Source of the DNA: a virus
DNA length: 40,374 nucleotides
IMG/VR virus record: IMGVR_UViG_3300037193_000497
Location: 1 to 40,374 of that record
Direction: 5' to 3' (one strand)
Shown: piece by piece, positions 1,363 through 40,369 of the stretch
Numbering within the stretch: position 1 is the stretch's first letter
Layout of the letters: each line of letters starts with the position of its first letter
Notes under the pieces: model-generated
Told to the model about the DNA's origin: nothing
Databases searched by the model: none
Seen by the model: only the letters and a program-made list of their open reading frames with translations
Made by a program: the position numbers and the translations under genes

Positions 1363-1599
1363 TTAAACTTCTCTCTGTGAGATCAGGCGCAAAGCATCAT
1401 TAAATGCATCAGTTTCCCCACTCTCCAAATCGTCACGTAATTCCAGGAGAATCTTTGAGAGCTTTTGCATTTCATCGTCACTTAAAGACCTCCCATCTGT
1501 ACCGTTCAATTTTTTATTGAACGCATCCTTTGACATGCCCATCCTGATGGCTAGCAGATTTCGGTTTAACTTCCATTTGTCAATCACTTCTTTAAGCAT
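1363..1599 (-). CDS. HTH-like passenger protein of the IS
   Basis: Protein of 78 aa. Residues about 8-45 read like a helix-turn-helix of the XRE type: LLAIRMGMSKDAFNKKLNG resembles the paired helices in which the second helix contacts DNA, followed by an acidic helical tail. Its start overlaps the transposase 3' end by 16 bp, implying translational coupling, and it is followed by a terminator inside the element. A role in regulating the element, or as a host-interaction passenger, is inference. Confidence 0.65.
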   Translation of the reverse strand: MLKEVIDKWKLNRNLLAIRMGMSKDAFNKKLNGTDGRSLSDDEMQKLSKILLELRDDLESGETDAFNDALRLISQREV

Positions 1600-2516
1600 A
1601 GTTGTTTGTAGGTTAAATGTGAATTGATATTGTTGAGCATAGCGTCAAATCGGAAGTTTTCAGAATAACCACGGGTGTTGTATCTGAACACAAATTCATC
1701 AAGGTATTTTTGAAGATGCTTATCAGACATTGAATGGTAGATGCCGATTACACCACGTTTCAGTAGTGACCAAAAGCCCTCTATTGAATTTGTATGAACA
1801 CCATCCTTTGAGTATTCACCAGCACCGTGATTGATAAACTGGTGTTTGAATATGCGAGAAAGGCCACGGTAGCCCCACCATTCGTCTGTGTGGACGGTTG
1901 AACCGAACTCCACATTGTTTACGATGAAAGGCCGTAAGCTGTAGCCACGGGTATTTAAGACCTTAATTGCGCGAAGCTGGCCGCCACGCTCAATAATGCC
2001 CAGCACTGGAATTTTAGTTGCTGATGAGCGGCCCTGCGTTCCGGGTGTCTGCTTTGATTTGTGTTTGTTTGACTCCTTGCCACCTATGAAAGTTTCATCC
2101 GCTTCAATGATGCCTGTAAGTTTTTCGCCATTGCTGATGAGAAGCGTGTGACGAACACGGTGCAGCATAAACCAAGCGGTCTTTTGCGTTACCCCTAAGT
2201 CACGATGTAATTGCAGGGATGAAATACCTTTCTTATGTGATGTGATCAGGTAGATTGCGGCAAACCATTTTTGAAGACTGATTTTAGAGTCTTCGAAGAT
2301 AGTACCAACTTTAACGGAAAATTGGCGCTGGCATTTGGCGCACTTGTAACGCTTTCCATCCGTGTACTTGAATACGTGATCGTGTTTACATTCTTTGTAA
2401 GGACAAACGATATTACCGTTCCAGCGAATCAGTTCCAGATAATCACGGCAAACCTGCTCATCTTTAAAGTAAGTGAGCAAGTCTACAAGGGTTTTGAATT
2501 TACGAAGGGCTACCAT
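1584..2516 (-). CDS. IS1595-family (ISXO2-like) transposase
   Basis: Protein of 310 aa that should catalyse cut-and-insert or replicative movement of the surrounding element. An N-terminal zinc ribbon (CPYKEC at about 38 and CAKC at about 58) precedes the family helical segment. The DDE-type core is visible as EADETFIGG (first Asp), VHTDEWWGY (second Asp) and HTNSIEGFWSLLKRG, where Asn takes the third catalytic position, as is usual for ISXO2-like members. Length is normal for the family and no frameshift is seen, so the enzyme looks intact. The gene starts by TAATG overlap with the upstream passenger gene. Confidence 0.93.
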   Translation of the reverse strand: MVALRKFKTLVDLLTYFKDEQVCRDYLELIRWNGNIVCPYKECKHDHVFKYTDGKRYKCAKCQRQFSVKVGTIFEDSKISLQKWFAAIYLITSHKKGISSLQLHRDLGVTQKTAWFMLHRVRHTLLISNGEKLTGIIEADETFIGGKESNKHKSKQTPGTQGRSSATKIPVLGIIERGGQLRAIKVLNTRGYSLRPFIVNNVEFGSTVHTDEWWGYRGLSRIFKHQFINHGAGEYSKDGVHTNSIEGFWSLLKRGVIGIYHSMSDKHLQKYLDEFVFRYNTRGYSENFRFDAMLNNINSHLTYKQLCLKK

Positions 2517-11234: not shown

Positions 11235-11867
11235 ATGAATAAAAGTACCCACGACAAAGTCTTCGACAAGAGCAGGGTTCACAAATGGAATGGAGACAAA
11301 TGCACTCTTTGTGGCATAGAGAAGAAGGCAAAACGTATTCCAATCAGGAACGGCACCACAGACGTATATTCCTATGATAATTTCAAGACATTTCGACTTT
11401 ATGCGGGTCAATGTGATTTAAAGAAATACATAGAAAGCATGGTAATGCCTGAACCAAACACAGGTTGTTGGTTTTGGATGGGTTTTGTTACGAGTCACGG
11501 CTACGGTAAGATTGTATTCAACGGCAGAAAGGTCGCGGCACACAGAATATCCTACGCTGTTCACAAGGGCAAAATAAAAGATGGCGCTGTAATTTGTCAT
11601 AAGTGCGATGTTCCTGGTTGTGTAAACCCAGATCATTTGTTTTTAGGTACACAAAAAGACAATGTTCATGACATGATCAGAAAGGGTAGAGCCAAATTCC
11701 CGATTGTAAATAAAGGTGAGGCCTCGCACTTGGCTAAGGTTTCGGCCGATACAGTGCTAAAAATAAGGGCATCAAACCTTTCAAACGTGGAAGCATCGGA
11801 GTTTTTCGGTCTACCTTATCACTTGGTGTATCAGATAAGAAAAAGGATATCATGGAAACATATATAA
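11235..11867 (+). CDS. HNH homing endonuclease (HNH_3 type)
   Basis: Protein of 210 aa. CTLCG near residue 22 is an extra zinc knuckle. The HNH_3 core runs from GCWFWMGFVTSHGYGKI through AAHRISYAVHKG to ICHKCDVPGCVNPDHLFLGT with its Cys/His metal ligands. The C-terminus has a small helix-turn-helix (NVEASEFFGLPYHLVYQIRK) ending in SWKHI, the same ending as the minus-strand NUMOD4-HNH protein at 20675-21157. Such enzymes spread their own gene between related phages. Its insertion between small operon genes fits a mobile intron-less endonuclease. Confidence 0.88.
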   Translation: MNKSTHDKVFDKSRVHKWNGDKCTLCGIEKKAKRIPIRNGTTDVYSYDNFKTFRLYAGQCDLKKYIESMVMPEPNTGCWFWMGFVTSHGYGKIVFNGRKVAAHRISYAVHKGKIKDGAVICHKCDVPGCVNPDHLFLGTQKDNVHDMIRKGRAKFPIVNKGEASHLAKVSADTVLKIRASNLSNVEASEFFGLPYHLVYQIRKRISWKHI

Positions 11868-11883
11868 TTTACCGGTTACGCAA

Positions 11884-12018
11884 ATGAAACTACACCCCTA
11901 CAAAGAGAACACCGAAATCATTTGGAGCAGGAAGATGATGGCATTTGGCTGGTGCTTACTGGCCGGTTTCATTATCGCTGTGTTTATAGTCACTGGATGT
12001 TATTACTTATTTGGTTAA
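11884..12018 (+). CDS. Single-pass membrane peptide, 44 aa
   Basis: Hydrophilic N-terminus (MKLHPYKENTEIIWSRKM) followed by a hydrophobic segment FGWCLLAGFIIAVFIVTG. Probably anchored in the inner membrane with its N-terminus in the cytoplasm. Function unknown. Confidence 0.55.
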   Translation: MKLHPYKENTEIIWSRKMMAFGWCLLAGFIIAVFIVTGCYYLFG

Positions 12019-12033
12019 AAAAATATTTACAAA

Positions 12034-12312
12034 ATGAAGTTCAAACCTGGACAGAAAGTAGTATGCATTCACAAGGGTGATTGGCGAGGCTTAATTTACG
12101 GATCAATAGACAACGGTTTCAAGCCAAAATTCAACGAGGAGGTAACTATACATGGGTACGGAAAATTAAATGGCTTAACCGGTGTATCATTGATTGAATA
12201 TCCCATAAATTCTTACGGATCGCCACAAATGTTTTTAGAAAAATGGTTTGTACCCTTAATGGACATATCCGAGCTTACCGAAATACTCAACCATGAACCA
12301 GAACACGCTTAA
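12034..12312 (+). CDS. Conserved phage protein, 92 aa
   Basis: Starts MKFKPGQKVVCIHKGDWRGL and ends with KWFVPLMDISELTEILNHEP. The pairing of an N-terminal F-x-x-GQ-x-V-V-C-I strand, a central EEVTIHGYG and the closing F-x-PL-x-DI-x-ELTEIL is common among small Bacteroidota phage proteins of unknown function. Probably an SH3-like barrel with a helical tail. Confidence 0.65.
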   Translation: MKFKPGQKVVCIHKGDWRGLIYGSIDNGFKPKFNEEVTIHGYGKLNGLTGVSLIEYPINSYGSPQMFLEKWFVPLMDISELTEILNHEPEHA

Positions 12313-12347
12313 CAACCATTCGATAAATCACTAAACCCAATTACTTT

Positions 12348-12485
12348 ATGGAAAACTACGACAGAGAAGAAGAAGAATTTAATGTGCCTATTAAACTCAC
12401 GGTGTTTCAGAAGATCATTTACTTCCTCGGCACTCTCGGGTTCTGCGGTTGGGTCTGGTTTGTTATCTGGCATCTTGTACACTAA
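12348..12485 (+). CDS. Single-pass membrane peptide, 45 aa
   Basis: An acidic N-terminus (MENYDREEEEFNVPIK) precedes a hydrophobic segment from IIYFLGTLGFCGWVWFVIWH. Predicted membrane peptide, the third in this operon. Its TAA overlaps the ATG of the next gene (TAATG). Confidence 0.55.
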   Translation: MENYDREEEEFNVPIKLTVFQKIIYFLGTLGFCGWVWFVIWHLVH

Positions 12486-12616
12486 TGGTTATCGATATGA
12501 AAGCGAAATGTAAATCGGGTAATCACAATTATCAGATTCAGCCAAAATCAGGATGCAAAAACGGCGTTCCTCTTTGGAAATGTAATCGATGTGGTAACAA
12601 AGTCTATTCAATGTAA
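12485..12616 (+). CDS. Small zinc-ribbon protein, 43 aa
   Basis: Cys at about residue 9, His at about 14 and CNRC near residue 33 form a probable zinc ribbon (KCKSGNHNYQ and WKCNRCGNKV). The start overlaps the stop of the previous gene as TAATG. Small zinc ribbons like this often bind nucleic acid or RNA polymerase, but there is no direct evidence here. Confidence 0.6.
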   Translation: MVIDMKAKCKSGNHNYQIQPKSGCKNGVPLWKCNRCGNKVYSM

Positions 12617-12617
12617 T

Positions 12618-13031
12618 ATGCAATGTTCTCGTTTTTCATCTGAATGTAAGCGCGGTTGTACAGGGGTCTGCCGTGCAAAGAATGTATACTGTCCATCGAA
12701 TGGAACTGAAGGCGCTGGATTCACTGAAGAGTACTGCATGAACTGTTTGCATTGTGATCCAGACCCGAACGGTAAAAAGCAATGTGAAATATTACTCGCG
12801 ACGATGTGCTTTTATCCGACCGAACCAGAATACCCTTTAGAATGGCATTACGATTCGACAGGTAATCCAAGGTGTTCAAGGTACGTGAATTGGGATTGGG
12901 GAACAAACGGTGATCCTGACGACCCTGATAATCCCAATAAACCACCTGATCCACCCGACCCACGACAGCTAAATCTTTTCCCACTGTACCACCCTGAGTT
13001 ACTCAACGAACTTCAACGACAAATCGCATGA
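12618..13031 (+). CDS. Cysteine-rich phage protein, 137 aa
   Basis: The first 90 residues contain about a dozen Cys, in groups such as CSRFSSECKRGCTGVC and CMNCLHC, which suggest several zinc sites. A Pro/Asp-rich linker (NGDPDDPDNPNKPPDPPDPR) and a helical end follow. The ATG at 12618 lies one base past the previous stop and is preferred to an upstream GTG inside that gene. No family name is known to me. Confidence 0.65.
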   Translation: MQCSRFSSECKRGCTGVCRAKNVYCPSNGTEGAGFTEEYCMNCLHCDPDPNGKKQCEILLATMCFYPTEPEYPLEWHYDSTGNPRCSRYVNWDWGTNGDPDDPDNPNKPPDPPDPRQLNLFPLYHPELLNELQRQIA

Positions 13032-13222
13032 TTTTAACCTCCAAAGAGCTAGAGATAATACGCCTTATGGCTGATGGGAATTCTAATAAGGTTATCGCAA
13101 TGAGAACCGGATTTAGCGCGGCGACCATCGAAACGTATCGCATCAGAATGATACACAAGATGGAGTTAAAAAACTCTTGTGAGCTAGTGGCCTATGCTTT
13201 AAGAAACAACCTCATAAAATGA
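13028..13222 (+). CDS. LuxR-type HTH DNA-binding protein, 64 aa
   Basis: The entire 64 aa is a GerE/LuxR C-terminal domain: LTSKELEIIRLMADGNSNKV, then IAMRTGFSAATIETYRIRMI where the recognition helix lies, then HKMELKNSCELVAYALRN. There is no receiver or ligand-binding domain, so it would act as a constitutive or protein-regulated binder. It is coupled by ATGA to genes on both sides and lies upstream of the promoter-containing non-coding stretch, which may be one of its targets. Confidence 0.85.
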   Translation: MILTSKELEIIRLMADGNSNKVIAMRTGFSAATIETYRIRMIHKMELKNSCELVAYALRNNLIK

Positions 13223-13461
13223 TCAAAATAACAAGACGTGCGCCAAAGATCGCCAGAGGCGGATCAACTGGACATTCATCGTATGACTGGGATAATTCAG
13301 GAATCGTTTTTAACGACGACTTCGTAGAGAAAGCACTGTCCCGCGATCAGCGAAAGAAAGACGCTAAGGAGAACGGTTTAAAACGCTACCACGCCAACAA
13401 GAAAGAACGTGAAGGTAGAGACACCCGCCAGGATTTCAATAAACGCTACGGGGATTTATGA
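13219..13461 (+). CDS. Basic hypothetical protein, 80 aa
   Basis: Highly charged protein (KKDAKENGLKRYHANKKERE) with a short aromatic N-terminal half. It is likely to be a nucleic-acid-binding or disordered protein. Coupled by ATGA to the LuxR-type gene upstream and to the following gene. Confidence 0.55.
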   Translation: MIKITRRAPKIARGGSTGHSSYDWDNSGIVFNDDFVEKALSRDQRKKDAKENGLKRYHANKKEREGRDTRQDFNKRYGDL

Positions 13462-13661
13462 TGCAGTGGGAAACCTGGAAGATCAACGGGGGCTTTATAC
13501 GGCCTTCCGTTGCTGAATTCACTCCGATCATAATCGATATGGAGACATTGCGGAAGTGTCGCGCAGGACTGAAGAAGAAGATCACAAAGGCAAAGGGGTC
13601 AAAAAAGGTGAGGCTCACGCTTATAAAGGAAGAAATAGATTTTTTGATTGACAACCTTTGA
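13458..13661 (+). CDS. Hypothetical protein, 67 aa
   Basis: A helical basic protein: SVAEFTPIIIDMETLRKCRA followed by LKKKITKAKGSKKVRL and a final helix. It is the last gene before the 700-bp non-coding stretch. Its ATGA overlap with the previous gene supports the start. Confidence 0.55.
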   Translation: MMQWETWKINGGFIRPSVAEFTPIIIDMETLRKCRAGLKKKITKAKGSKKVRLTLIKEEIDFLIDNL

Positions 13662-13679
13662 AAACTTTTTCTCTTACTA

Positions 13680-13739
13680 TTTGGGAAAAATGACCTCGTT
13701 AATTTACATTTGAAAATAGGTTCGCGTGCCTTATCTTTG
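13680..13739 (+). promoter_or_regulatory. Nested tandem Bacteroidota promoters
   Basis: Two exact consensus promoters share an element. P1 is TTTG at 13680, 21 nt, TACATTTG ending at 13712. P2 uses the last four bases of that -7 box (TTTG, 13709-13712) as its -33 element, then 19 nt, then TATCTTTG ending at 13739. No coding gene begins within 600 bp downstream, so the transcripts are expected to be non-coding RNAs, a tRNA-like RNA, or a long leader. Confidence 0.75.
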
Positions 13740-13744
13740 AAGCG

Positions 13745-13823
13745 AATCATAAAGATTTTAGGAACCCTTAGTGGATGGATCGGAAGTAAGGCACCGGTTG
13801 TTCGCTGAGGGTTTCTGCATTTT
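13745..13823 (+). ncRNA. Putative hairpin small RNA or leader
   Basis: Predicted transcript from the tandem promoters. AGGAACCCTTAG (13760-13771) pairs with CTGAGGGTTTCT (13805-13816) as a 12-bp stem with two wobble pairs, enclosing a second stem ATCGG/CCGGT. A short T-run follows at 13820. It could be a roughly 75-nt small RNA with a weak terminator, or the 5' leader of the tRNA-like transcript. No open frame is present. Confidence 0.45.
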
Positions 13824-13825
13824 AT

Positions 13826-13927
13826 GGCCCACTAGTTTAATGGTGAGAATACTTTACGATAGACGCGCAACTCGTCGCTAAAAACTAGTAGCGTATTGAG
13901 ATACAGGTTCGATCCCTGTGAGGGCTA
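13826..13927 (+). tRNA. tRNA-like sequence, unusual length, isotype unresolved
   Basis: The 3' half has a perfect T-arm (ACAGG-TTCGATC-CCTGT) directly followed by GAGGGCT, which pairs with GGCCCAC at the 5' end except for one A-A mismatch and one G-U pair. TAGTTTAATGGTGAG resembles a D-arm with its GG loop. At 102 nt it is longer than an ordinary tRNA. One fold gives an anticodon stem AATAC/GTATT with a 40-nt loop. Another gives a class II tRNA with anticodon AGA (Ser) and an extra arm CGCTA/TAGCG. CCA is not encoded. It may be a degenerate or interrupted tRNA. Confidence 0.5.
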
Positions 13928-13944
13928 CCCTATAAAAAACGTTT

Positions 13945-14131
13945 TGCAAGACTTGTTAAAGCGTGTTTGTAACAGAGACAAACGAAAAACAAGTTGCTTT
14001 TGGATTTAGCTACTACCCGATGGAAGTTAATGAGGGACTGTCGGGTACGATCAACGAAGACGAAAATTCCGGGCTCTGCCAACGCCGACAACCCGGCCGT
14101 GAAAATCTTTAACTCCCCAGTCTTCGATTGC
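13945..14131 (+). ncRNA. Strongly folded non-coding segment
   Basis: Four independent helices lie in under 190 nt. ACTTGTT (13951) pairs with AACAAGT (13988), enclosing GTTTGT/ACAAAC with a 7-nt loop. TACCCGA (14014) pairs with TCGGGTA (14041). CAACGAAGAC (14052) pairs with 14120-14130 through ten pairs and one bulge, enclosing CCGGG/CCCGG. Such dense nested pairing is typical of a structured RNA. No ATG-started gene covers it. I know of no RNA family that matches. Confidence 0.45.
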
Positions 14132-14360
14132 CGTTACGGGATGCGGATGCTTTCTATTGGCAGAGTAGATCAATCTGTTTAAACAAAGATCTATTAACCC
14201 AGAATTACAATACAAATATACTGATTAATATTCTTAATTGGGCTTTGTAGGGTATTTCACGGGAAAGGCGAGTCATGCCCATACATCAACTAAGGTCTTA
14301 GGTTGAAATAAATATCCGATTCCTGTAACAAATTACTAACACATAGTGTATAATTGTGGT
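14132..14360. other. Remainder of the non-coding stretch
   Basis: No supported gene. A hairpin TAGATC (14166) / GATCTA (14188) with a 16-nt loop is present, and the rest is AT-rich. I see no consensus promoter for the ribbon-helix-helix gene that follows, so that gene may depend on read-through from the tandem promoters at 13680-13739. Confidence 0.4.
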
Positions 14361-14534
14361 ATGAAAGAACACACAAACGTAAGAATCGATTCTGAACTTC
14401 TGAAATTATTGAGGGACGCCGCGAAGAAAGAAAGGCGATCATTTACAAATTACATTGAAGTTGTGCTTTGGGATCATGTGAATTCTGAAAGCCAGAAAGA
14501 ACCCGCTAAGAAATTAATTAAGATGGGAAGATGA
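14361..14534 (+). CDS. Ribbon-helix-helix DNA-binding protein, 57 aa
   Basis: HTNVRIDSELLKLLRDAAKK followed by ERRSFTNYIEVVLWDHV is a complete Arc/MetJ-type ribbon-helix-helix unit: a short strand (NVRID), helix A and helix B with an S-x-x-N-Y-I-E turn. Such proteins bind operators as dimers. The ATG at 14361 is used instead of a GTG 15 bases upstream, because it starts immediately before the strand. It is the first gene after the non-coding stretch and may regulate it. Confidence 0.8.
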   Translation: MKEHTNVRIDSELLKLLRDAAKKERRSFTNYIEVVLWDHVNSESQKEPAKKLIKMGR

Positions 14535-14599
14535 TCCGCACTTTCGACGACTTCTGGAAACTTCTTTCTGAAAACCCTATATGGTTAGAACATGTATAA
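14531..14599 (+). CDS. Tiny ORF, 22 aa
   Basis: MIRTFDDFWKLLSENPIWLE followed by His-Val and a stop; it overlaps the stop of the ribbon-helix-helix gene and the start of the 115-aa gene. FDDFW-x-x-L resembles the N-terminus of longer small phage proteins, so this may be a truncated relic or a translational-coupling peptide. Confidence 0.4.
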   Translation: MIRTFDDFWKLLSENPIWLEHV

Positions 14600-14939
14600 A
14601 CTCGCTGTAACAATTTGGTTCACTTTCTACGAGCATCACACCGGAGAACAATATGTATTTGATGGGAAGGATGGCCGGCACTTAAAGCAACTCCTTAAAA
14701 AAGTTGAGGCAAAGGTGAAGCAAAAGAACATGGAGCCCAACGAGGAAAACATTTTGAACAGCCTGAAAGGATTCTTAAATTCAGTGAAAGACCCGTGGAT
14801 CTTGGAGCATTTAGAAATCAGTTTAATCAATAGCAAATTCAATTCATTGTATGTCAACGCCGTCAGAAATAACCCGTTCACAGCAACAGACAGGATTACA
14901 GAAATTGTCAGAAAGCGTAATTCTCAAGGAGCAGGATAG
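14592..14939 (+). CDS. Conserved phage protein, possible replication accessory
   Basis: Protein of 115 aa. The N-terminal WFTFYEHHTGEQYVFDGKDG followed by a basic helix (LKQLLKKVEAKVKQ) is a recurring pattern in Bacteroidota phage replication regions, where F-Y-E and Y-x-F-x-G-K-D are conserved. The C-terminal half is helical with SKFNSLYVNAVRN. The next gene overlaps it by 89 bp in another frame. No biochemical function is known to me; helicase-loader-like activity is only suggested by location. Confidence 0.6.
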   Translation: MYKLAVTIWFTFYEHHTGEQYVFDGKDGRHLKQLLKKVEAKVKQKNMEPNEENILNSLKGFLNSVKDPWILEHLEISLINSKFNSLYVNAVRNNPFTATDRITEIVRKRNSQGAG

Positions 14940-15456
14940 AGAATCGGTGATAATATTTGTCGCTCAACTTATTAACCGATTGGGCAAGCTGTATCAAATA
15001 CCTGGATCATCAGACGAACACTGTGTGATACTTGCCGAATGGGTTTACGACAATTACAAATTTGAGTCACTGGAAGCGGTTAAAGAATGTTTGCGTAATC
15101 CACCGGAGACTTTTGATGAACAGGGCCGGAAAGAAAACAATTGGAGACTGACCCCAGACAGAATACAAAAGTGGATGACCGTAACACTTGAGCGAGAGGC
15201 CATCAAACGCGAGAAGGAAAACGAAAAACTGAAACTTGATTTCAAGGATGAATTAACTCCACCATCAGAGCAGGAAGATTATGCAGAATATTATAAAAGG
15301 TTTTACGGTGGATTTAAAGAGCGTATTGATAACGGTGAAGCACTCAAAGACGAACCAAAGATTGAACAGCAAGCAGCAAACGCCGGATTCATGGATGAAG
15401 GTTATCTAAAGTTTAAAAAAGAACGATTAAAGAAACTATCTGGTGAACATGGATAA
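14851..15456 (+). CDS. Hypothetical replication-region protein, 201 aa
   Basis: A helical, charged protein. Residues 25-80 (ESVIIFVAQLINRLGKLYQI, HCVILAEWVYDNY) form a folded helical domain, followed by WRLTPDRIQKWMTVTLERE and a highly charged, probably coiled-coil C-terminus. The layout (winged or helical N-terminus plus flexible C-terminus) is like phage replisome organisers or helicase loaders, but no diagnostic motif is present. Confidence 0.6.
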   Translation: MSTPSEITRSQQQTGLQKLSESVILKEQDRESVIIFVAQLINRLGKLYQIPGSSDEHCVILAEWVYDNYKFESLEAVKECLRNPPETFDEQGRKENNWRLTPDRIQKWMTVTLEREAIKREKENEKLKLDFKDELTPPSEQEDYAEYYKRFYGGFKERIDNGEALKDEPKIEQQAANAGFMDEGYLKFKKERLKKLSGEHG

Positions 15457-32255: not shown

Positions 32256-32605
32256 GTCTCTAATTCAACATACTCCCCACCAGATTCAGCCGTCAGTTTC
32301 ATAAACCGTTTACGGTCTAAAAAAATAATGGCCTTTATATTATAAAGTCTACCATTGTAGACTATTCTCATCGCCTCATTTATTCCGCCGGTGTACCTGA
32401 TGTAAAAATCAGCAACAGTAACAGCAGTTAGTTTGTCGTCGCGATAATATTCACCACCGCTTTTTTCATCAACTCTTGCCCAGGGCACTAGGAACGTTAT
32501 CCATCCCGTTTCGGCGTCTTCATTGGATACATTTTCTCCTACATCTTTGTACTGGATTGTTATCTGCCGGTCCAGTTTTCCAATCTGCTCTTTAGACTGT
32601 AGCAT
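32252..32605 (-). CDS. Head closure / head-tail adaptor protein
   Basis: Protein of 117 aa with the SPP1 gp16-type opening IGKLDRQITIQYKDVGENVS, a central TFLVPWARVDEKSGGEYY, and VTVADFYIRYTGGINEAMRI. This is a beta-barrel adaptor that closes the DNA-filled head and accepts the tail. It is coupled to the gp10-like gene by ATGA. Its start overlaps the end of the glycosyltransferase-like gene by 14 bp. Confidence 0.85.
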   Translation of the reverse strand: MLQSKEQIGKLDRQITIQYKDVGENVSNEDAETGWITFLVPWARVDEKSGGEYYRDDKLTAVTVADFYIRYTGGINEAMRIVYNGRLYNIKAIIFLDRKRFMKLTAESGGEYVELET

Positions 32606-33302
32606 ATTTCAAAGAACAAATAGCGTCTACCTCTTCAGTACTCAATCCTTCAAAAGCTTTTGATATCGGGTAACTCATCCCTTTTTCTTGAAAAGGCCAG
32701 ATGTTAGTTTCGCTTTTGATATCAATGGCTAATGGTTCGTCACTTTTTACGCGCCTCTCCAAGTACCCAGCTCTAGCCAGCGCAAAGGTTGAATTATTAT
32801 CAAGTCCGCATGTGGATAATTCAGCCCAAAGTTTCCACTTCATCCCCTCCAACGCATCGCGCCTGATCATTCTTCCAAGTCCGAATTTTGCATCTCGGTC
32901 ACTCCACCGACGGCAAGCGCCTGTGACAGAGTCGATCATAACAAAATCTCTAAGCGCAAAAACTGATCTGTCTTCAGACAAATCAAAAAGATTCAAGTAC
33001 TCACTTTTCAACAAGTCATCAGAGCCAATTTCAACCAGGTAATCGAATTCCTTTTTCTGCAATTGCTTTAGCCCGTGATTCTTCTTTGCTCCAAGCGGTT
33101 GATTTTTATGAGTGCAGTATTCTACATCGTACCTATTGCACAACCCAACCAGCTCAGTGAAATAAGGATCTTCAGGACTCAGTACTGCAAATGCCTGCAC
33201 GGGGAAAAGACGCTTTAACCTGCTAATCCCCATGAAGCAAATTTCTGTTATCTCTGGGCGTTTCCATACTGCCAGGTAAATGAGAAATTTATACTTCTGC
33301 AT
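32592..33302 (-). CDS. Glycosyltransferase-like protein (GT-A/GT2 type)
   Basis: Protein of 236 aa. The N-terminal strand KFLIYLAVWKRPEITEICFM, then THKNQPLGAKKNHGLKQL and DYLVEIGSDDLL, follow the GT-A nucleotide-sugar-binding pattern in which the Asp pair of a D-x-D-like motif (GSDD) binds metal and donor. The same H-x-N-x-PLG and GS-x-D pattern occurs in the protein at 39587-40369, so the two are related. The ATG at 33302 is chosen because it overlaps the connector gene end. Its location between two head-tail connector genes is unusual and hints at modification of the virion. Confidence 0.75.
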   Translation of the reverse strand: MQKYKFLIYLAVWKRPEITEICFMGISRLKRLFPVQAFAVLSPEDPYFTELVGLCNRYDVEYCTHKNQPLGAKKNHGLKQLQKKEFDYLVEIGSDDLLKSEYLNLFDLSEDRSVFALRDFVMIDSVTGACRRWSDRDAKFGLGRMIRRDALEGMKWKLWAELSTCGLDNNSTFALARAGYLERRVKSDEPLAIDIKSETNIWPFQEKGMSYPISKAFEGLSTEEVDAICSLKYATV

Positions 33303-33846
33303 TCCAGTAAACTTTAATGTTGTCAAGCAACTCCATCCAGCTATCTGAATTCTCGTTAGTATCGCCTCGCTTTTCGTAATCCAATGCAAGCCGCTTTTTT
33401 ATAGCCAGCTTGACAAGCTCAGAGGCCTCGGCTTCACCTGCATCATAAGTAACTACGACGTTATTCAATGTCCTGCTTGTGTCTGGCCATCCTGAGTCAT
33501 TTACCCGGAGCTTAGCAAGTCCACTTTGAACATCGATGTAGTAATTAGCCGGATCAAAAGTTGTCTCCACATCATCACCATCGAGATAAACAACCTCGAT
33601 TGATTCGGGATCAACCGGCCCATAAGGAAGCACAAGGTCGCCACAAAATCTATCCAACTTAACCACACGGGTCTGAGTAATAAAACTCAAACCCGCATAG
33701 TTTTCGCAGGCGATCCGCGCCGACGTAATCAGCGAAGTAATCAACGCGTTTTCGTCTGTACCGTCAACTTTAAGCCAGGCTTTCGCCTCCTCAACTGTTA
33801 TCGGTTCAGAAACCGGCTGCGTTGTAACCCTGCTGTATACTATCAT
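33289..33846 (-). CDS. Head-tail connector, HK97 gp6-like
   Basis: Protein of 185 aa. VSEPITVEEAKAWLKVDGTD followed by ALITSLITSARIACENYAGL is the standard N-terminal helical bundle of gp6-like connectors. A beta region (DLVLPYGPVDPESIEVVYLD) and C-terminal helix LVKLAIKKRLALDYEKRG follow. It would form the dodecameric or 13-mer ring under the portal. The next gene overlaps its 3' end by 14 bp. Confidence 0.9.
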   Translation of the reverse strand: MIVYSRVTTQPVSEPITVEEAKAWLKVDGTDENALITSLITSARIACENYAGLSFITQTRVVKLDRFCGDLVLPYGPVDPESIEVVYLDGDDVETTFDPANYYIDVQSGLAKLRVNDSGWPDTSRTLNNVVVTYDAGEAEASELVKLAIKKRLALDYEKRGDTNENSDSWMELLDNIKVYWNAEV

Positions 33847-37553: not shown

Positions 37554-37763
37554 ATGGGTCATAAAATGTTTGATGCCTTTAGTCGGGCATTTGAAGAGAA
37601 AAAAAAAGGCGGCCTAAACAACATTGAAGCGTTCGACCGCGCAAAAGAAGAGTTTACCAAAAACTTCGAGTTCTCACCATACAAGGATGCGGAAAGTTTT
37701 ATAGCCACAAGAAGCTATCACCGCAGGGAGGAAAGAAACCTACTCAGAAGGCGTAAGCGTTAA
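37554..37763 (+). CDS. Isolated plus-strand protein, 69 aa (moron-like)
   Basis: MGHKMFDAFSRAFEEKKKGG then NNIEAFDRAKEEFTKNFEFS, a helical basic protein ending in RREERNLLRRRKR. It is the only plus-strand gene in the late block, has its own promoter, and is squeezed between the portal (divergent) and the amidotransferase (convergent, overlapping by 4 bp). This is how independently expressed accessory genes are placed in lambdoid-type phages. The ATG at 37554 is preferred over one at 37482 because the promoter lies between them. Function unknown; the Arg tail suggests nucleic-acid binding. Confidence 0.6.
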   Translation: MGHKMFDAFSRAFEEKKKGGLNNIEAFDRAKEEFTKNFEFSPYKDAESFIATRSYHRREERNLLRRRKR

Positions 37764-38884
37764 CAGCAATACTTCCGGTAAGCGGTCGCCGGGAAGATGC
37801 CAAACTTCATAAGAACCCAAAATACAGGTTTCCATGCCTTAAAGTTTGTCATTTTATAGTCACTGCGTGGACGTTTCGGGGAATACTCAACAAGCCTAAG
37901 TAGATGATCCTTACGATCACCGAGATCATTTAAATCAAATTCTGTTTCCTGTTGCAAAAATTCTTTTGCTGCTGTCTTGGAGAGTTTACCCTCGCGGATC
38001 TGAGCAGATAAATAAGTTTTGCGCTTGTCGATACCGAACTTTTTAGGCAGAACATACCCGCCAATGAAAGCCGTGTAAATGTTTTCGTTATGCTTCGCGC
38101 CGTAAGATTGCCATCCCCATTGTTTCAGAGTCTTCAAAATGCCGGTCCTATCGTAATCCTGGTAATGGTATGGACGGACTTGTTTAATTCCGATGATGCC
38201 TCCCCATATCTGATCCCACACTGTTAACAACGGATAGTTGAACAGGTCTTTACCGTTGAACTTTCTGTAGATTGAATTAAGATACGTGTAATCAATCACG
38301 CTCCATGCTTTCGGACTGCTGCCCTCTTCACGGAATGAGTGTCCATTCAAAATATATTTAATGCCGTGATCTTTTGCGGCCTTATACATGAGCTTTGACA
38401 TTACTACGTCGTTCGCGATATCGCAATCAGGAACACCTGCGCGTAGTAGTGAGTCGGTTAAATTATCGTACTCATGTTTATCAACGAAGTATTCAATGAA
38501 ATTAACGTTGAGCCGATCAACTAACACGCGAATGTTATTATTAGCTGACTCTCTATTGGTTCTGTTGTTGAAGTGAATAACCAACGGACGAAGGCCCCAA
38601 ACTTTAACAGCCATGTAAAGCATTACGCTCGAATCTTCCCCTCCGCTGATCCCAATAAGACAATCGTACTGCTTACCTTTGCCTTTCGATTTAATCTTGT
38701 CAAGTAATGGCGGCCACTTGTCCGGGTTGGCGTTGTTCCGTAGTTCGGTTTGTAGATGACACATCTCACATTCGCCATCATCATGAATCTTTACGAATGA
38801 ATCATCGAATAAACACGTGATGCATTCTATGGGGCCGTTTATTGCCTTAAAAATGTCTAATCCTTTTACGGTTGCTGTTTTCAT
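37760..38884 (-). CDS. N-acetyl sugar amidotransferase (WbpG/PseA-like)
   Basis: Protein of 374 aa. The N-terminus has a zinc knuckle (ECITC at about 19 and CEMC at about 38). The PP-loop ATP-binding motif is YDCLIGISGGEDSSVMLYMA at about 73, followed by a strand PLVIHFNNRTNRESANNNIR. These are the landmarks of the family that amidates N-acetylated sugars in O-antigen, pseudaminic- or legionaminic-acid pathways, using ammonia from a HisH-type partner. No such partner is visible here, so host ammonia or a host glutaminase would be needed. It is coupled to the glycosyltransferase-like gene upstream, which argues for a shared glycan pathway. Confidence 0.85.
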   Translation of the reverse strand: MKTATVKGLDIFKAINGPIECITCLFDDSFVKIHDDGECEMCHLQTELRNNANPDKWPPLLDKIKSKGKGKQYDCLIGISGGEDSSVMLYMAVKVWGLRPLVIHFNNRTNRESANNNIRVLVDRLNVNFIEYFVDKHEYDNLTDSLLRAGVPDCDIANDVVMSKLMYKAAKDHGIKYILNGHSFREEGSSPKAWSVIDYTYLNSIYRKFNGKDLFNYPLLTVWDQIWGGIIGIKQVRPYHYQDYDRTGILKTLKQWGWQSYGAKHNENIYTAFIGGYVLPKKFGIDKRKTYLSAQIREGKLSKTAAKEFLQQETEFDLNDLGDRKDHLLRLVEYSPKRPRSDYKMTNFKAWKPVFWVLMKFGIFPATAYRKYCC

Positions 38885-39615
38885 AGGAATAATTTGTTAG
38901 GAAGGTTTACGAACTTTTTTATATCGGCGGCTATGTGTTTATTGTCTTTGTGTCGTGATTCGTATTCAAGTATTATAGCATCACACAATTTATAAAGATT
39001 ATCCCACTTTATAGAGTGTGGTATGTTGCCATTGAATACAGACCTTCTTCCCATCAGTCCCATCTCCAAATTTGTATTTGGGCAACCATCATAAGCTGTT
39101 AACCTTAGGTTAATAAAGCAACTTTTATAAACCTCTATTAATTCTTTTCTTGAGTACGTTTCATGAGTAGCACGAATCACGTTCAATCCAGTGATGTGTT
39201 TTATCTCTGGAATCATGAACTCACCATAGTAGTTTGCTGATTCTTCTGACATATCCGAAGAATAAAAGTAAATATTCTCGCCTCTCTTGCATGGTTTCAA
39301 ATTCGCGATAGTCGCGGATATTGGCAAAAGCTCACTTTCAATTCCGTATTGATCCAGAGAGTGTTTTATCCAGTGAGAGATTGCGTAATGCTTCGCCGGT
39401 TTGCTTTTCATGATTCCAACGTATTGGCAATCCTTCGCGTCCATTCCTTGCCAGACTACAATAACTTTAGATGGATGTTTTTGAAACAAATACGCGTCAT
39501 AAGCCTGATACATCCCGAATATTACGAGAGGTTTTGAACTGTCGTGGTAATCAACAAGGTTGTATTTCTTCTTAAAGTCAAGCCCGTCAAGACTGCTGCT
39601 TATGTGGCACTGCAT
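38881..39615 (-). CDS. Glycosyltransferase-like protein (GT-B type)
   Basis: Protein of 244 aa. The C-terminal part INLRLTAYDGCPNTNLEMGL then MGRRSVFNGNIPHS matches the end of GT-B (GT4-like) enzymes, where the acidic residue of N-x-E-x-x-L-M-G contacts the nucleotide sugar. The N-terminal half has strands such as KPLVIFGMYQAYDAYLF and SKVIVVWQGMDAKD. It is shorter than typical two-domain GT-B enzymes and may be reduced. It overlaps the gene upstream by 29 bp and the amidotransferase downstream by ATGA. Confidence 0.65.
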   Translation of the reverse strand: MQCHISSSLDGLDFKKKYNLVDYHDSSKPLVIFGMYQAYDAYLFQKHPSKVIVVWQGMDAKDCQYVGIMKSKPAKHYAISHWIKHSLDQYGIESELLPISATIANLKPCKRGENIYFYSSDMSEESANYYGEFMIPEIKHITGLNVIRATHETYSRKELIEVYKSCFINLRLTAYDGCPNTNLEMGLMGRRSVFNGNIPHSIKWDNLYKLCDAIILEYESRHKDNKHIAADIKKFVNLPNKLFL

Positions 39616-40369
39616 TAAAAATTAGTTTTGCTTCCGGAAAGTTGTAATCTAAAAAATCGCCCACCTGATAAATCTTTTGTGACTTCAGTTCACCATTCCA
39701 ATGGTCTACAAACTGGTGTTTATTCTCCCAGTGATCGGTAGAAATGCTCATGCTTTTTATCTTTTCACTGCTGGCAAGATGCAACTTACCTCCGACTTTA
39801 AGCACTTTTTGCTGCATGGAATAGTCTAAACTTCGATCTAAATGGTCATCAAATGGTTTCCACTCCAACTTGTTTAAGACTCTGCTGCTTATCAGGCGAC
39901 CTATACCAATAGATTCCCCTTTTCGGTTGTTTGAATACCCTGGCCAATAGCATAGCCTCATCTCATCACCGATGTCGAGAAAGAAACACCCAGCCGTTCC
40001 AATCAAATCATACTCTGCAATATTCGGTGCAAGTTCGGAGATCCAGTTATCGCTAACGAAGTCAGACGACCCAACAAATAAGCAGGCATCAGGTTTATGT
40101 TTCTCTGCCGCCTGAAATGCTGCGTTCCATTTTTGACCGAGCGGTCTGTTTCTGTGCTGCACCCATTCAGCGCCGAGTGATTCACAAATTATTCTTTCTT
40201 CGCGTTCATCGCCTGAACAAATTACCTTATGAACTCTGTTTTTCTTGTGAAGCCTTTCGACTGTCTGATGAAGTAAGGGCAATCTACCGTGAACGGGAAG
40301 ACAGGCTATCACTCGCGGACCCCCACAGCACTTACCAGAATCATCAATCGGACACACACCGTCATGCAT
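39587..40369 (-). CDS. Glycosyltransferase-like protein (GT-A/GT2 type)
   Basis: Protein of 260 aa. An N-terminal Cys-rich lead (CPIDDSGKCCGG) precedes the GT-A pattern: VIACLPVHGRLPLLHQTVER, then VQHRNRPLGQKWNAAFQAAE and ACLFVGSSDFVSDNW, with the Asp-containing GSSD in place of the D-x-D motif. CYWPGYSNNRKGESIGIGR is a plausible acceptor region. It is related to the protein at 32592-33302 by the H-x-N-x-PLG and GS-x-D pattern. It begins 5 bp inside the right edge; whether genes upstream belong to the same cluster cannot be seen. Confidence 0.75.
   Translation of the reverse strand: MHDGVCPIDDSGKCCGGPRVIACLPVHGRLPLLHQTVERLHKKNRVHKVICSGDEREERIICESLGAEWVQHRNRPLGQKWNAAFQAAEKHKPDACLFVGSSDFVSDNWISELAPNIAEYDLIGTAGCFFLDIGDEMRLCYWPGYSNNRKGESIGIGRLISSRVLNKLEWKPFDDHLDRSLDYSMQQKVLKVGGKLHLASSEKIKSMSISTDHWENKHQFVDHWNGELKSQKIYQVGDFLDYNFPEAKLIFNAVPHKQQS

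Follow-up and report, generated by a model that had tools for sequence, protein, structure and literature searches.

An exchangeable glycosyltransferase and amidotransferase cassette between the terminase and portal genes of uncultured phages

In the uncultured tailed phages described here, the space between the terminase (TerL) and portal genes is an exchangeable slot, in which a GT-A-fold glycosyltransferase appears paired with one of two types of amidotransferase. The reading we prefer, to which we give about an even chance, is that of an accessory, late-expressed glycan cassette whose product is an amidated or amidinated sugar, probably for virion proteins. The window (the whole stretch of DNA that was analysed) is an entire linear IMG/VR record of 40,374 bp, so that its right edge coincides with the end of the contig. 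The relevant features are the following.

39587..40369, minus strand: GTA1, GT-A-fold glycosyltransferase, 260 aa
38881..39615, minus strand: GTB, compact GT-B-fold (GT4-like) glycosyltransferase, 244 aa
37760..38884, minus strand: AMIDO, PP-loop N-acetyl-sugar-amidotransferase-like enzyme (WbuX/WbpG/NASAT kind), 374 aa
37482..37763, plus strand: small opposite-strand ORF in the gap between AMIDO and portal, 93 aa
36197..37498, minus strand: portal protein, bounding the cassette slot downstream (PF04860, E 1.5e-74)
32592..33389, minus strand: GTA2, second GT-A paralogue amid head-tail connector genes, recognized by profile comparison to GTA1

Cassette layout and enzymes

The sequence-only reading had placed three overlapping ORFs upstream of the portal gene, and all of them are there, intact and on the minus strand, with overlaps of 29 bp (GTA1/GTB) and 4 bp (GTB/AMIDO) and a gap of 262 bp between AMIDO and portal. 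The ATG of GTA1 lies only 5 bases from the contig end; its homologues begin at about the same point in the alignment, so GTA1 looks complete. A position between terminase and portal had also been proposed, and it agrees with eight relatives (L002, L003, L004, L008, L009, L010, L014, and L018) in which TerL, itself outside the window, is found immediately upstream of the GT-A gene. The 93-aa ORF, which gave no family match, has a 44% identical counterpart at the equivalent site in L003 and may or may not be a cassette member. Elsewhere in the window, an IS1595/ISXO2-like transposase with a zinc ribbon (1584-2516, minus strand; PF12762 E 3.5e-45, PF12760), also matching PHROG families of unknown function, sits inside the phage contig. 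Distant matches of the tail and capsid genes include Cellulophaga (Bacteroidota) phages.

AMIDO had been read as an N-acetyl-sugar amidotransferase, an assignment sustained by its matches to the NCBIfam WbuX model TIGR03573 (E 1.3e-47, 162.9 bits) and to the profile of a solved NASAT structure (PDB 8wex, E 3.6e-6). The curated cut-off of the former, 203.2 bits, is reached neither by AMIDO nor by its relatives (147-170 bits), and by these scores the viral enzymes appear as a sister branch of TIGR03573, outside its curated membership. The NASAT hallmarks are a PP-loop SGGxDS and a tetracysteine CxxC...[GN]xCxxC (PMC10607449). AMIDO has both, as S80-G-G-E-D-S85 and as a zinc-type C21-C24-C39-C42 (GECEMC), and the SGG, the DS and the four cysteines are invariant in 25 viral members. 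In a maximum likelihood tree with 52 cellular amidotransferases these 25 form a single clade (support 100/100). Glutaminase PF00117 was detected in none of the 25 viral records searched, and a HisH-like neighbour (motif, within 4 kb) at no viral locus compared with 31 of 58 cellular amidotransferase loci, such HisH/HisF-type ammonia-supplying partners near NASAT being common but not universal; the NASAT version would thus use free ammonia or a host HisH. GT-A, GT-B, and connector GT-A genes were absent near the cellular amidotransferases, apart from one very weak connector-GT-A-like match (L085). A QueC/deazaguanine reading of AMIDO was discarded, with matches of only E about 0.01-0.08.

The GT-A and GT-B types suggested from the letters were recovered as full folds in AlphaFold models, with Z about 18 each. 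The GTA1 model (AF2, pLDDT 91.7) is best matched by the WrtF fucosyltransferase (Z 18.2, rmsd 2.5, 179 residues aligned), while GTB (pLDDT 91.1) is a complete two-domain GT-B fold of the GT4 type (Z 18.1 over 232 of 244 residues), structurally matched by GT4 enzymes such as BshA and TarM at Z 17-18. By sequence GTA1 gives weak family matches only, with 12.3 bits against PF00535, short of the cut-off of 23.3, and E 1.2e-5 for one of its relatives. GTB has no Pfam match, PHROGs and NCBIfam are equally uninformative, and its identity was resolved by fold alone; a PDB sequence search returned nothing for either protein. GTA1 also has weak Pfam CTP_transf/NTP_transf matches, and its Foldseek list includes CMP-KDO synthetases, but a cytidylyltransferase reading was rejected: ranked by Z, its matches are all GT-A glycosyltransferases, and it conserves the DXD-like and LD motifs.

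Across 26 sequences GTA1 keeps the motifs PLGxKW, GSSD (DXD-like), and LD; GSSD/GSDD and LD are kept in three GT-A subfamilies and, from their position, would be the metal motif and the catalytic Asp. For GTB, the E-x7-E motif reads D-x7-E in the window (DGCPNTNLE), and several relatives lack the first acidic residue. The sequence-only reading had further noticed a related GT-A gene among the connectors, and GTA2 does match GTA1 (hhalign E 8e-15; independent genome search E 3e-15), has a likely ATG start at 33302, and conserves GSDD and LD. Its homologues occur at 71 viral loci, many of them without a cassette, and the connector-region GT-A may serve the virion or its assembly in a more general way, independently of the cassette. 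In the GT-A tree the NASAT-paired, AsnB-paired, and connector proteins form separate clades (SH-aLRT 99 each) with PLGxK, GS[SD]D, and [LM]D in common.

Distribution of the cassette and exchange of the slot

Scanning viral contigs with amidotransferase and GT-A profiles, we found the module in about 28 distinct uncultured phage contigs besides the window, which bears out the co-occurrence in related phages that had been suggested as a check; these counts include near-copies, and the relatives are metagenomic fragments, so presence and absence are given as the fragments show them. GT-A was always accompanied by an amidotransferase just downstream, and two short contigs carry the amidotransferase end alone. 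Identity to the homologues is about 40-75% for GT-A and the amidotransferase and 23-52% for GT-B, which was found in 15 other module contigs and is missing from the rest. The trio is present in L003, even though its portal is only 24% identical to that of the window, and in L005, with a P22-like portal, and head genes adjoin the module in phages of unrelated types, this P22-like-portal kind included. Since the homologues keep their order in many independent contigs and the motif residues are invariant, the trio does not result from chance. Degraded active sites, named beforehand as evidence against the proposal, were not encountered, the catalytic motifs being conserved. Adjoining the portal gene of L005 there is also a 1042-aa ORF with a LAGLIDADG/intein-like segment (11829-14957).

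Outside viral contigs, the GT-A family was absent among the matches listed in a pattern scan of 84,980 species genomes and from 395 Bacteroidota genomes in a profile search that detected its positive control, and on these searches the GTA1 family appears to be virus-only. Nor were prophage-borne copies of the cassette found in the genomes scanned by pattern or profile. A cultured-phage collection gave no match to AMIDO (queries from the window and from two relatives), GTA1, GTA2, or the AsnB-paired GT-A, and the closest match in the structure library is a 49% identical protein of an uncultured Caudovirales phage, whose name states no more than a GT-A-type domain.

When the scan was widened, with portal and connector GT-A as queries, 44 TerL-to-portal intervals were obtained, nine of them with GT-A and a NASAT-like enzyme, nine with a divergent GT-A and an AsnB-like amidotransferase, six with other genes, and 20 empty. 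The AsnB-like enzyme of these sister phages is roughly 520 aa long, with an N-terminal glutaminase and a conserved Cys2. GT-A is present in 18/18 intervals with an amidotransferase and in 0/26 without one (Fisher p about 1e-12, near-copies included), and no contig has both amidotransferase types together. In a portal tree with 38 rows, at least 10 changes are needed among the three cassette states, from which it follows that cassettes have been gained, lost or swapped. This exchange, together with the constant pairing of GT-A with either amidotransferase type, had escaped the sequence-only reading and tells most about the locus. There is also more than one landing place, as in L175, L176, and L178 the GT-A/AsnB pair lies upstream of neighbouring TerL and portal genes.

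The slot is without a cassette in the close relatives L169, L174, and L180-184, so virions can be built without it there. In L169, with a portal 60% identical to that of the window, TerL is followed by the portal gene after 230 bp, which indicates that these genes are an accessory cassette and not assembly machinery; accessory as it looks, the cassette would fit a decoration. Relatives lacking the genes had been named as a result that would speak against the proposal, and the empty slot of L169 is partly of this kind.

Other genes were seen at these loci. The slot of a cassette-free lineage (L140:4499-5362) holds a CoiA-N-like gene (PF25164, E 1.3e-5), an HNH/AP2-type homing-endonuclease-like gene splits the cassette between GT-A and GT-B in L008 (3023-3667), and in L018 the amidotransferase gene is followed by one with weak AP2 similarity. 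Homing endonucleases may help to mobilise the cassette.

Sugar chemistry and the probable acceptor

The genes accompanying the module point to sugar chemistry. They include a sugar N-formyltransferase with a sugar-type C-terminal domain in L004 and L005 (dTDP-4-amino-4,6-dideoxyglucose kind, E 8e-62), a short DegT-type aminotransferase ORF in L005, a PIG-L deacetylase in L018, L026, and L113, a hexapeptide acyltransferase in L018 and L113, a sulfotransferase in L025 and L026 (weak matches), a methyltransferase in L012 and L149, and further glycosyltransferases inserted in some modules. A full nucleotide-sugar pathway was not among the genes seen in the window. We regard sugar amidation plus transfer as likely. 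AMIDO would use ATP (PP-loop chemistry, AMP + PPi) to place nitrogen onto a nucleotide-linked amino sugar, most likely converting an N-acetyl into an acetamidino group; the GT-A enzyme would transfer the resulting amidated or amidinated sugar, and GT-B, where present, would extend the glycan by another sugar. The AsnB-like version would supply its own glutaminase domain. With either partner, an amide-type nitrogen on the sugar transferred by GT-A would be the shared theme.

Being co-directional, overlapping, and within the terminase-portal block, the genes are probably expressed late. Their position in the packaging and head block, together with the paralogue in the connector region, suggests the virion as acceptor, which we take to be an evenly balanced proposition. 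Glycan attachment to virion proteins would then most likely take place in the cytoplasm as the particle is assembled, GTA2 acting as a standing partner.

One alternative, which we consider unlikely but worth serious attention, is that the cassette makes or alters LPS or another surface glycan of the host, resulting in a superinfection block or a receptor change. In bacteria, NASAT and AsnB/WbpS enzymes take part in O-antigen and A-LPS pathways (PMC10607449, PMC7468200), and the tailoring enzymes fit LPS chemistry. However, the three gene products are small and of soluble type, flippase, polymerase, and membrane anchor genes are absent among the scanned module genes, the module stands beside head genes in several phage types and not in a lysogenic-conversion position, and no prophage-borne copies were found in the genomes searched.

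Two further alternatives seem very improbable to us. DNA hypermodification, with the sugars placed on modified bases for restriction evasion, has precedent in other phages that use glycosyltransferases and tailoring enzymes (as cited in PMC12619734), and the sequence-only reading had listed DNA among its possible targets; it is disfavoured here because a thymidylate-synthase/hydroxymethylase family gene is found in 0/25 records (the window and 24 others). There was also no Tet_JBP match (the control was likewise silent), a C5-methylase occurs in few records and not in the window, and the cassette lies among late packaging genes instead of replication genes. We give equally little credit to the idea that the PP-loop enzyme AMIDO modifies something other than a sugar (for instance protein, peptidoglycan or tRNA) and is paired with glycosyltransferases incidentally. 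PP-loop enzymes are diverse, AMIDO has weak matches to ThiI, MnmA, and NadE, and AsnB-like enzymes also amidate peptides, but the next-best match is E 1.5e-5 against the 1.3e-47 of TIGR03573, the amidotransferase is exclusively paired with GT-A, and the neighbours are sugar-tailoring genes.

Returning to the glycan cassette, we propose, as a tentative view that we hold at somewhat less than even confidence, a modular, horizontally exchanged virion-glycan locus in which a virus-only GT-A family has co-diversified with two distantly related kinds of PP-loop amidotransferase (NASAT or AsnB-like); every phage lineage would then have a particle coat bearing an amidated or amidinated sugar, its type switching by cassette exchange. 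If this is right, a wide range of environmental phages, and not a few mycobacteriophages alone, would glycosylate their virions, and selection on the coat would act on the charge chemistry of the sugar (amide or amidine). Viral "asparagine synthase" genes readily pass for auxiliary amino-acid metabolism; in this slot, an enzyme of glycan metabolism is the likelier reading. With its defined hotspot and its matched set of cassette-bearing and cassette-free phages, the locus also opens the role of phage glycans to testing.

Comparison with known systems

Phage virion glycosylation (Che8 and its relatives) and both amidotransferase types in bacteria are already known. For the paired, exchangeable terminase-portal cassette and its virus-only GT-A family we found no description in the open-access literature or cultured-phage records searched, in line, as far as that literature goes, with the initial impression that this was not a described system. 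Chloroviruses and mimiviruses similarly have virus-encoded glycosyltransferases and sugar-making enzymes that decorate virion proteins (excerpts of PMC9614988), although their hosts are eukaryotic, and in those excerpts there is no swapping of a NASAT/GT-A cassette at a packaging locus. Virion glycosylation is also described for the cluster F mycobacteriophages (Che8; Freeman 2023, cited in PMC11256854 and PMC12619734). According to the excerpts, Che8-type phages also encode glycosyltransferases thought to decorate a capsid or tail-tube protein, but no amidotransferase is mentioned there, and in Maravista (F1, related to Che8) the glycosyltransferase genes are located towards the right genome end and not between terminase and portal.

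As for the enzymes, the viral NASAT-like proteins share with the bacterial NASAT of O-antigen clusters (TIGR03573, PDB 8WEX) the SGGxDS PP-loop, the tetracysteine, a similar length, and sugar-gene neighbours. They differ from WbpG/WbuX/NASAT in forming one clade outside the sampled cellular ones, in scoring under the cut-off, in being without a HisH/HisF-type partner, and in their location in a phage packaging and head block. In Porphyromonas gingivalis the AsnB-like WbpS (PGN_1234) yields a sugar uronamide in the Wbp/Vim pathway (PMC7468200), and an AsnB-like amidotransferase with a glutaminase domain is what it shares with the slot of the sister phages. The sister-phage enzyme, a putative sugar amidotransferase that does not occur in the window, differs from WbpS in adjoining a viral GT-A and head genes.
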